Source: Noviherbaspirillum sp. (GTDB lineage: Bacteria; Pseudomonadota; Gammaproteobacteria; Burkholderiales; Burkholderiaceae). From it: a stretch of DNA of 7,106 nt. A program made the position numbers and the translations under genes. Below, piece by piece: positions 1,005 through 7,106 of this stretch. The number at the start of each line of letters is the position of its first letter. The stretch's first letter is position 1. The DNA lies in the NCBI GenBank assembly GCA_028292785.1, contig JAQGLQ010000278.1, positions 1 to 7,106 of the forward strand, given 5' to 3'. Below the pieces are notes generated by a model. It was not told where the DNA came from. It saw nothing but the letters and a program-made list of their open reading frames with translations, and ran no database searches.

Positions 1005-1052
1005 CATGCAATCGGCCATTCTGCCGCATGCGAATGGGTACGCGTCGCCGCT

Positions 1053-1070
1053 ATCGTTTGTCGAGAGTGG
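1053..1070 (-). repeat. Inverted iteron left of the AT-rich repeats
   Basis: On the minus strand this reads CCACTCTCGACAAACGAT. It matches the right-hand iterons (for example CCACGCTCGGAAAACGAT) at 15 of 18 positions. It is the only clear copy in the opposite orientation, and it places iterons on both sides of the 11-mers. Confidence 0.72.
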
Positions 1071-1079
1071 TTTTGAGCC

Positions 1080-1112
1080 GATTAAAGAAGGATTAAAAGC
1101 AGATTAGGTGGC
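1080..1112 (+). repeat. Three tandem AT-rich 11-mers, candidate DNA unwinding element
   Basis: GATTAAAGAAG, GATTAAAAGCA and GATTAGGTGGC start at 1080, 1091 and 1102, an exact 11-bp period that puts GATTA on one face of the helix. The third copy is degraded after GATTA. Short AT-rich repeats beside iterons are typical of DNA unwinding elements in iteron plasmids (13-mers in RK2). A further AT-rich stretch follows near 1126-1154. The unwinding role is inferred. Confidence 0.55.
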
Positions 1113-1163
1113 CGCCAAAGTGCAGTTATCCCATTGATATGAAAAGATTTTCACATGTCGCCG

Positions 1164-1293
1164 TCGCGCTCGGAAAACGATAGGCCCTCGCTTGGGATAC
1201 GAACCGGTCCACGCTCGGAAAACGCCGGCCGCTCGCTGGAGAAACGCGCCTCCACGCTGGAGCTACGCGAGCCGCCAACGCACGGGAAACGAT
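1164..1293 (+). repeat. Iteron cluster 1: six regularly spaced 18-bp repeats
   Basis: Copies start at 1164 (TCGCGCTCGGAAAACGAT), 1186 (CCTCGCTTGGGATACGAA), 1209 (CCACGCTCGGAAAACGCC), 1231 (GCTCGCTGGAGAAACGCG), 1252 (CCACGCTGGAGCTACGCG) and 1276 (CAACGCACGGGAAACGAT). Start-to-start steps are 22, 23, 22, 21 and 24 bp, about two helical turns, so a protein bound at each copy would lie on roughly the same face. CGCT near the left and ACG near the right are the most constant parts. The stretch 1294-1391 that follows has no clear copy, only a small hairpin (1349-1366). Confidence 0.85.
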
Positions 1294-1391
1294 ACATGGC
1301 TGGCTATGAACGGCGCAAACCCTCTTTCAATTCAGGTTTCATCCTGCGTGCGGTATCAAAACCGCATGGGAATCCTGTTTCATTCGCTGTT

Positions 1392-1482
1392 CATCGCTTG
1401 GAAAACGATGTTTCAACCGGTTTTTGCAGTGCCGCGCACGCTTGAAATACGATAATCGGCCTATCCATGCTCGAAATACGTG
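1392..1482 (+). repeat. Iteron cluster 2: three repeats
   Basis: Copies start at 1392 (CATCGCTTGGAAAACGAT), 1436 (GCACGCTTGAAATACGAT) and 1465 (CCATGCTCGAAATACGTG). The first step is 44 bp, exactly two 22-bp periods, as if one copy in between had decayed; the second is 29 bp. Two copies carry the AAATACG variant rather than GAAAACG. Confidence 0.8.
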
Positions 1483-1518
1483 TCCGGACGCCTGCAACGA
1501 CGTGAATCTGCGAGGATG

Positions 1519-1844
1519 GCACGCTGATGTGCGCCGGTTTGGCCACGCTTGACGCACGAGCCGGGACGGATCAGGTGCGAACCGTTTCACCGCCACGCTG
1601 AAAAAACGATATCGGACAGCGCGTTTCACCGGCTGCGCCGCCTTTGCGGGTGCTTCACGGCCTTTTCCACGCTCGGGAAACGTGCAAATCCGCATCCGCA
1701 GCAAAATCGGCACCGGGCCACGCTCGGCAAACGAGTGTGATGCGGCAGACATCGCCACCGAACGCGGACTGCAAAGTTCCGCAGCCACGCTCGAAATACG
1801 TGTTTCAACGCTCGAACGATGAATCTCCACGCTCGAAAGACGAG
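1519..1844 (+). repeat. Iteron cluster 3: scattered repeats ending in a tight trio before trfA
   Basis: A weak copy starts at 1519 (GCACGCTGATGTGCG). Clear ones start at 1543 (CCACGCTTGACGCACGAG), 1593 (CCACGCTGAAAAAACGAT), 1667 (CCACGCTCGGGAAACGTG), 1718 (CCACGCTCGGCAAACGAG), 1785 (CCACGCTCGAAATACGTG) and 1827 (CCACGCTCGAAAGACGAG). A 15-bp copy lacking three central bases starts at 1806 (CAACGCTCGAACGAT). The last three are spaced 21 and 21 bp and lie directly before the trfA leader, where bound protein could repress trfA. Confidence 0.83.
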
Positions 1845-1893
1845 CTTTGCCGTGTTACTTTAAAAAAAGGTCAACGCAGCTGCTGGAAGTCCC
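1845..1893 (+). promoter_or_regulatory. trfA leader: A-rich tract and ribosome binding site
   Basis: The 49 bp between the last iteron and trfA contain a TTTAAAAAAAGG tract (1859-1870) and a Shine-Dalgarno-like GGAAG at 1885-1889, only 4 nt before the ATG. No good -35/-10 pair is visible. Any promoter here would overlap the last iterons, which fits iteron-mediated autorepression known in other iteron plasmids. That regulation is inferred. Confidence 0.4.
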
Positions 1894-2817
1894 ATGCCCC
1901 CGGTCACAAAACACAAATCCCTGAACGACGCGCTCGCCAAAATCGAGGAAAGCGTCGCCAACAAAAGAAAGTCCGCTTCCAGGCAGGCGCATGTGGCATT
2001 GGCCGCCGAATCGCCGTTTCCCCAGCGTGAAGTGGAGGATGTGCTGCGGATCGTGCAACTGCCGCTGTGGGAAAACCAGGTGCGCGGCTTGCCGAACCCG
2101 CTGGCGAGATCGGCGCTGTTCACCGTGGCCCGGCAGAATGAACCGCGCCAGCATCTGAAAGAGCGCCCGATCACTTCCGTGAAAGGCGTCGAGATTTTTT
2201 ATACCGGAGAAGAATTGCGCCAGGACGACGAGGATGTCTTTCTCAATCTGGTCCACCTCGCGCGCAGCCAGCCGCTGGGGCATGAGGTATCGTTCACCGC
2301 GTATTCGATGCTCAAGTCGATGGGCTGGCCGACCTCGTCGCCTTCCTACGAGCGGCTGCGCCTGTGCATCCTGCGGTTGACGGCAAATGCGGTCGAGATC
2401 CGCTTCGACGCCGGCTCCGGCAAGCGCGGTTACGGCGGCACGCTGGTGCAGGAATTCACGTTCAAGGATGAGACCGATCGCCAGTGGAAAGTCCGTCTCA
2501 ATCCGAAGCTGATCTCCCTGTTCGGGGCGGACGCATATACCCAGCTCGACTGGCGGCAGCGCCTGAAGCTGCGCTCCCCGCTGGCGAAATGGCTCCATGG
2601 ATTCTATTTCACGCACCGCGAACCGTTCGGCTACAAGGTGGAAACCCTGAAAGGCTTGTGCGGGTCATCGGCGCAGCAGCTTTATCATTTCCGCAACGGC
2701 TTGAAAAAGGCGCTCGATGTGCTGGTAGAGACCGGCTTTCTCAAGTCCTGGCGCATCGATCCGGTCACCGATGTCGTGACGGTCATGCGCGCGACGCGGA
2801 CGCTCGCGCTGGTGTGA
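1894..2817 (+). CDS. trfA: TrfA-family replication initiator protein
   Basis: This 307-aa protein is recognised as a TrfA-family (RK2/IncP-type) initiator. The shared pattern includes LPNPLARSALFT (66-77), YTGEELRQDDEDVF (103-116), LFGADAYTQLDW (209-220) and FTHREPFGYKVETLKGLCGS (239-258). TrfA proteins bind iterons through tandem winged-helix domains, melt the origin and recruit DnaB and the beta clamp. QLPLW at 55-59 fits the clamp-binding pentapeptide class (QLSLF-like), followed by the conserved family body. The length is close to the short RK2 form (about 285 aa) rather than the long one (about 382 aa), so a long helicase-recruiting N-terminus seems absent. Residues 1-40 are basic and probably disordered. 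The frame is intact and codon use matches its neighbours. The gene follows an iteron array on the same strand and ends 3 bp from a convergent response regulator. It could be a working initiator, a repurposed DNA-binding regulator, or a recent remnant. Confidence 0.88.
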   Translation: MPPVTKHKSLNDALAKIEESVANKRKSASRQAHVALAAESPFPQREVEDVLRIVQLPLWENQVRGLPNPLARSALFTVARQNEPRQHLKERPITSVKGVEIFYTGEELRQDDEDVFLNLVHLARSQPLGHEVSFTAYSMLKSMGWPTSSPSYERLRLCILRLTANAVEIRFDAGSGKRGYGGTLVQEFTFKDETDRQWKVRLNPKLISLFGADAYTQLDWRQRLKLRSPLAKWLHGFYFTHREPFGYKVETLKGLCGSSAQQLYHFRNGLKKALDVLVETGFLKSWRIDPVTDVVTVMRATRTLALV

Positions 2818-7075: not shown

Positions 7076-7106
7076 ATGCTCGCTTCGCAAAAACAGAAGA
7101 TCATCG
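7076..7106 (+). CDS. Start of a gene cut by the right edge, possibly arginyl-tRNA synthetase
   Basis: Ten codons are visible, MLASQKQKII, followed by one base. The beginning resembles the N-terminus of betaproteobacterial arginyl-tRNA synthetases as I remember them (ML..QKQ), and an upstream TATAAT supports a real gene. No clear Shine-Dalgarno is present. Ten residues are far too few for identification, so argS is a guess and no symbol is given. Confidence 0.4.
   Translation, partial: MLASQKQKII

Follow-up and report, generated by a model that had tools for sequence, protein, structure and literature searches.

A plasmid-type TrfA/iteron module retained on Noviherbaspirillum chromosomes as a candidate second replication origin

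Anatomy of the locus

The window analysed here, a 7,106-nucleotide stretch of Noviherbaspirillum sp. DNA, carries in order a cytochrome c gene (minus strand), an inverted iteron, a set of GATTA units, six iterons, ten further iterons and trfA, past which come a response regulator and a CHASE histidine kinase (minus strand), a tRNA-Arg(CCG), a GGDEF protein and the probable start of argS. The family search matched the cytochrome c protein over two stretches, and the frame starting at 7076 is read as probable ArgS because of synteny and because its first residues resemble those of a relative's protein. The neighbours named in the first-pass annotation were all recovered in this way, argS from synteny.

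The module itself (positions 1052-2817) is made up of 16 iterons on one strand and a single inverted one, a GATTA triple, and an intact gene for a 307-aa TrfA, much as the first-pass annotation had it (about 16 same-strand iterons plus one inverted copy, phased AT-rich 11-mers, and an intact 307-aa TrfA-family gene 49 bp after the last iteron). A weight matrix built from the window module and its relatives places the 16 plus-strand iterons (score at least 13) upstream of trfA, with starts from 1164 to 1827, and the inverted iteron at the outer edge of the origin (1052-1070, minus strand; score 21.2). A consensus scan of the window allowing up to three mismatches gives 10 plus-strand and two minus-strand sites, with 0.2 per strand expected from first-order simulated sequence, and at a score of at least 16 the matrix finds no site in 360 kb of genome G131 outside its module. 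Six iterons form a core array (1164-1294, plus strand) with spacings of 22, 23, 22, 21 and 24 bp, followed by ten dispersed iterons (1392-1845, plus strand; consensus and matrix scans), the last three of which (1785, 1806 and 1827) advance in 21-bp steps. The final iteron is a 19-mer (1827-1845) that ends 48 bp before the trfA ATG. The AT-rich 11-mers correspond to three GATTA units placed 11 bp apart (1080-1106, plus strand), a putative DNA unwinding element. The window accordingly presents two hallmarks of an iteron plasmid origin, namely direct repeats about 22 bp apart adjoining an initiator gene and an AT-rich stretch of repeated units whose melting is putative. A second conserved element near TCATTGA lies some 30 bp past the triple (about 1131-1145); similar elements occur in the other genomes that bear the module and in at least one plasmid (L153).

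The gene trfA (1894-2817, plus strand; Pfam TrfA E 1.1e-36) encodes a protein that scores 126.8 bits against the family profile PF07042, whose cut-off is 22. A possible -10 box of trfA (1855-1860, plus strand) coincides with a TAMCTT/TTACTT block that is conserved among the aligned upstream regions; the corresponding -35 would overlap the last iteron, which suggests autorepression. No PDB chain matched the window TrfA by sequence. Its predicted model (pLDDT 79.6) matches RctB (E 2e-9), TrfA 9a0w (E 6.6e-5) and RepE54 (about 1e-4), and the protein is thus predicted to have the initiator fold of RctB, from Vibrio chromosome 2, and of the plasmid proteins TrfA and RepE. Residues 55-59, QLPLW, are identical in all 11 module copies aligned and nearly invariant in a 41-sequence alignment; they fall in a low-confidence part of the model and constitute a putative beta-clamp motif. 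In this regard, a study on RK2 describes both the clamp-binding motif of TrfA, required for replication, and the unwinding element as required (PMC4980987).

Distribution and chromosomal setting

The TrfA profile scan gave a match in 32 of 392 family genomes, themselves drawn from a larger group, and among the loci fetched from it eight genomes encode a TrfA 83-88% identical to that of the window. These bearers include seven of the 15 searched genomes of the Noviherbaspirillum genus group, with Keguizhuia sedimenti as the eighth; Noviherbaspirillum sp. Root189, N. autotrophicum TSA66, N. malthae, N. aerium and K. sedimenti are relatives at 83-87%. In the protein search, identity falls from at least 83% to at most 58% after the first 11 proteins (best 120 of 619), and when a 50%-identical TrfA was searched against 369 genomes of the class, six of these gave strong matches, G002 being the only bearer among them. 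In another class lineage, two opposed TrfA genes with equal scores lie on one contig (G678:C181 5924-6691 and 35362-36129; L176 and L182). Our search of a literature library found no paper on Noviherbaspirillum with TrfA or with plasmid replication.

The other eight of the 15 genus genomes gave no match in the TrfA profile scan, and their flanks, 5-20 kb each, contained neither iterons scoring at least 16 nor a clear trfA remnant (best E 0.03). Since these eight genomes lack the module, it is dispensable at genus level.

In all eight bearers the module has a cytochrome c gene and tRNA-Arg(CCG) nearby: it lies on the side of these two genes, with the tRNA about 0.2 to 27 kb upstream of it; the window differs in that the module sits between cytC and the tRNA. 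In G003 it is the far end of an array that is linked to tRNA-Arg, on another contig. The gene dnaA is present in 17 of 17 genomes tested, the bearers among them, and shares a contig with the module in seven of the eight bearers, the exception being G003, where the two lie on different contigs. The distance between trfA and dnaA is about 104-242 kb in G001, G004, G005, G131 and G176; on the assumption that the contigs of G104 and G002 are circular, it comes to about 245 kb in the former and about 2 Mb in the latter. Because seven of eight relatives carry module and dnaA on one contig, a plasmid contig is not indicated and the chromosomal setting proposed from the window is supported.

We considered whether the module had replaced oriC, and rejected this idea since DnaA boxes are retained upstream of dnaA in the bearers. 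Within 800 bp upstream of dnaA, one or two strict boxes occur in each of the eight bearers and one to three in seven of the eight genus non-bearers (the contig of G187 is cut). As judged from these boxes and genes, the bearers retain both oriC and dnaA.

Beyond trfA, a psiF repeat protein, a methyltransferase, a kinase and an S8 peptidase are common to G001, G003, G004 and G176, and another gene set is common to G002 and G131. Directly after trfA in Keguizhuia lies a gene for an NYN-domain protein with a weak OST-HTH/LOTUS match (L042 11093-12310).

Conserved geometry, selection and descent

The arrangement of the origin is fixed in all ten copies with full upstream sequence; an eleventh, G003a, is cut by a contig end and was left out of the count. 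Each of the ten has the inverted iteron at the outer edge, 9-10 bp from the first GATTA unit, followed by the triple (first unit G/A/C-ATTA) and, 55-57 bp after its third unit, by iteron 1. The search pattern for the triple, written from the module copies themselves, gave no match in 1.14 Mb of background outside the module (780 kb of G131 and 363 kb of G001). Core spacings in the relatives are 22, 22-23, 22, 21 and 24 bp, one weak iteron of G131 being below the display threshold; the 21-bp steps of the last three iterons recur, and each of the ten copies has 13-16 plus-strand iterons. Iteron positions are 76-93% identical and spacers 43-62% (seven pairs compared of 36 possible), showing that the iterons, like the protein, are under purifying selection.

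One component of iteron plasmid origins, DnaA boxes, is lacking right after the triple: no box with up to one mismatch lies within 45 bp of it in any of the ten chromosomal copies, the DnaA sites elsewhere in them being scattered one-mismatch sites apart from a perfect box in G004. The missing box could have lowered the competence of the chromosomal copies. A further inverted iteron is found about 30-100 bp past the trfA stop in five bearers (L001 7004, L003 3688, L004 10167, L005 6950 and the G176 copy) and is missing in the window, G002, G131 and G104.

N. malthae and N. aerium have whole iteron-trfA modules in tandem (L003 379-3666; L004 about 5200-10071). Tandem trfA copies within a genome differ at 8 of 939 and 12 of 936 bases, and trfA differs between the two species at 75-78 of 936 bases; the copies are thus far more alike within a genome than between species, as if homogenised or duplicated twice.

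Across 36 pairs, trfA shows dN/dS of 0.02-0.15 at dS of 0.36-1.90, ratios that are approximate because dS is near or above 1 in many pairs, but which indicate that the gene is under strong purifying selection. A separate proposal that TrfA is more conserved than DnaA was dropped. Although the core of TrfA ranks above full-length DnaA and GyrB in every one of 28 pairs, the whole protein ranks above DnaA in no more than 9 of them, and the best 235-column window per protein scores 0.974 for TrfA, 0.982 for DnaA, 0.990 for GyrB and 0.948 for DnaN.

The patchy spread of the module (7 of 15 in the genus) is what would be expected of a recent or decaying plasmid insertion without function. We find this explanation hardly credible, however, given low dN/dS at high dS, fixed geometry and conserved iterons. 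A recent integration, which the first-pass annotation had named as a finding that would count against its reading, is moreover excluded by the divergence of the module copies, although eight genus genomes lack the module.

The history of the module was set against a species tree of five genes and 20 genomes, 16 of them ingroup (G154 fills 37% of the columns, and two of the gene names, TrmE and YidC, are guesses). Keguizhuia is the first branch among the ingroup genomes in this tree, and the bearers do not form one clade (AU p 3e-5), at least four changes being needed. For the eight bearers, the species topology is not rejected by trfA (AU p 0.151); the best trfA nucleotide tree differs from it at splits with 72-91% support, one example being the pairing of G005 with G176 (72%), and the tree of dnaA-region DNA is poorly resolved. 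We read these patterns as one early gain of the module followed by several losses, although they leave some room for repeated transfer of a closely related plasmid.

Relationship to plasmid origins and mobile elements

All 609 plasmid records with a TrfA match are less than 60% identical to the window TrfA (48.6% for the best among those listed), and the window DNA matches the plasmid collection over the tRNA alone, in one record. In four of nine TrfA plasmids examined (pBCJ2315, pR53p, pBMUL01 and a C. metallidurans plasmid) the GATTA triple precedes trfA on the same strand; the triple is on the opposite strand in three of the others and absent from two. In these four plasmids the TrfAs are related (<50% identical) and the anatomy is the same, which points to the chromosomal module as a captured plasmid origin. 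All four collinear plasmids have a DnaA-like box that begins 5 nt past the triple. None follows it in the three non-collinear ones, so a box at this place is not universal for TrfA origins.

Kinship with plasmid origins also raises the question of whether the module acts against plasmids, as an incompatibility device in which TrfA and iterons, without firing, exclude TrfA-type plasmids that enter the cell by pairing with their replication machinery or titrating it. The retention of many iterons, 13-16 on the plus strand of each copy, would suit such a role, as would the finding that all PF07042 matches in the eight bearers are module copies, no other TrfA-family gene having been found. The eight module-free genus genomes offer no contrast on the latter point, however, for they too gave no TrfA match; the core iteron sequence has drifted from the iterons of the plasmids examined, and the GATTA triple and the putative clamp motif are conserved though exclusion would not need them. 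We therefore regard a plasmid-exclusion device as unlikely.

The tRNA-Arg(CCG) beside cytC also holds distant TrfA-like genes in G212, G374, G386 and G030 (L046, L047, L048 and L049). That these represent the same ancient module was rejected, as they are 25-38% identical to the window TrfA, show no iterons and, in three of the four cases, come with mobile-element signs. These signs include a TrbL neighbour in G212 (L046), a duplicated tRNA in G374 (L047) and integrases within about 15 kb in G212, G374 and G030; G386 showed no mobile-element signs among those listed. The site thus appears to be a hot spot for elements with distant TrfA-like genes, and their element-like contexts make integration at tRNA-Arg a likely entry route for the module.

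The same contexts (G212, G374, G030), together with the tandem copies in G003 and G004, could be taken to mean that the module belongs to an element parked at tRNA-Arg that still excises or replicates as an episome. In contrast, no integrase, transfer or partition gene was found in the window or among the neighbours scanned, and among the integrase matches listed no genome but G176 has one less than 20 kb from the module (there at about 9 kb). The scanned neighbour proteins in G001, G002, G104 and G005, a subset of the neighbours, look chromosomal and include no relaxase, partition or transfer protein. Neither the window nor the bearers have a flanking copy of the tRNA 3' end of at least 13 exact bases, the probe being the tRNA of the window itself, which did not match the tRNAs of the bearers either. 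A still mobile episome consequently seems highly improbable to us.

Discussion

The plasmid-type anatomy of the module, its fixed geometry and its shared place on chromosomes that retain oriC lead us to favour, as the probable reading, a restrained but initiation-competent second chromosomal origin of plasmid descent, vertically inherited with several losses. The first-pass annotation had offered either a domesticated or secondary chromosomal origin or a TrfA-iteron regulatory device conserved in the lineage; shared locus, geometry, selection and vertical signal support the former, and the latter is less probable, since elements that initiation alone would require have been retained.

The case for TrfA as a regulator of nearby genes, whether as transcription factor or as dosage sensor, draws on DNA binding by the family and on the iterons at the promoter of trfA itself. 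A strict iteron pattern gave 49 matches in the eight bearers, 38 in the module and 11 elsewhere; the 11 are single and amount to a small excess over the control, with three matches in two non-bearers and two for the reversed pattern in the ten genomes. With this pattern no second iteron cluster was found outside the module in the eight bearers. The flanking genes also differ among bearers, and a regulator would not retain an unwinding element and a clamp motif. We accordingly give very little credence to a regulatory device, and retention of these two elements speaks against a mere regulator and a plasmid-exclusion device alike.

For the favoured second origin we propose the following model. 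The ancestor shared by Keguizhuia and Noviherbaspirillum, or an earlier one, would have acquired a complete TrfA/iteron origin on its chromosome, with the hot spot at tRNA-Arg(CCG) as the probable site of integration; the origin would have shed its mobility and partition genes and passed down vertically with several losses. By analogy with TrfA plasmids, TrfA would bind the six helically phased core iterons, open the GATTA triple and help to recruit the helicase, as well as the beta clamp through QLPLW, so that forks start. Iterons at the trfA promoter would mediate autorepression, and the ten further iterons together with the inverted one could restrain firing by titration and pairing. Such an origin may fire in every cycle or only as a backup.

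GC skew was given no weight as a test of firing, since GC and gene-strand skew are weak in both genomes examined. Over 800 kb of G131, where skew is weak, the dnaA-trfA interval totals about zero (-0.0005), with -0.012 to -0.015 to its left and +0.016 to +0.019 to its right, and the strand-difference intervals overlap; 383 kb of G001 show no clear pattern.

The retention of a plasmid-style origin across species suggests that chromosomes of this group of soil bacteria may carry a second replication start. The further proposition, that replication of these chromosomes naturally starts both from DnaA/oriC and from an unrelated, captured TrfA/iteron origin, a two-origin state inherited through speciation, we advance tentatively, as possible but short of probable. 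By the prevailing view, each bacterial chromosome starts its replication at a single origin, and engineered second origins carry a fitness cost (PMC7174701). A plasmid origin that persists intact across species beside oriC would amount to a natural experiment on whether and how bacteria live with two origins, with built-in controls in the tandem copies of two species, the module-free relatives and the plasmids of the same anatomy.

Among known systems, pBCJ2315, pBMUL01, pR53p and the C. metallidurans ZM16 plasmid are alike in having a GATTA triple, iterons about 22 bp apart and trfA, and the Burkholderia/Cupriavidus TrfA plasmids share a related iteron sequence and a related initiator. The module differs from them in being chromosomal, in a TrfA less than 50% identical to those of the plasmids listed, in lacking a DnaA box just past the triple and adjoining partition genes, and in a more extended ori. 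RK2/RP4 has a TrfA of the same family and oriV iterons 22-23 bp apart, whereas its iteron sequence is another one, no GATTA triple occurs in the stretch examined, oriV lies apart from trfA and amino acid identity is about 31% over the matched part. Vibrio cholerae ori2/RctB likewise places a plasmid-like initiator on a chromosome, and in its predicted fold the module TrfA is closest to RctB. A report on V. cholerae fused-chromosome strains describes two origins on one chromosome (PMC6284228). There, the second origin stems from chromosome fusion in single strains, whereas here a 1.8-kb captured module is common to several species. Multi-origin archaeal chromosomes use archaeal initiators, unlike the TrfA module. 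They nevertheless resemble the present case in harbouring an extrachromosomal origin inside the chromosome, one of several origins being described as derived from an integrated plasmid (PMC7174701).
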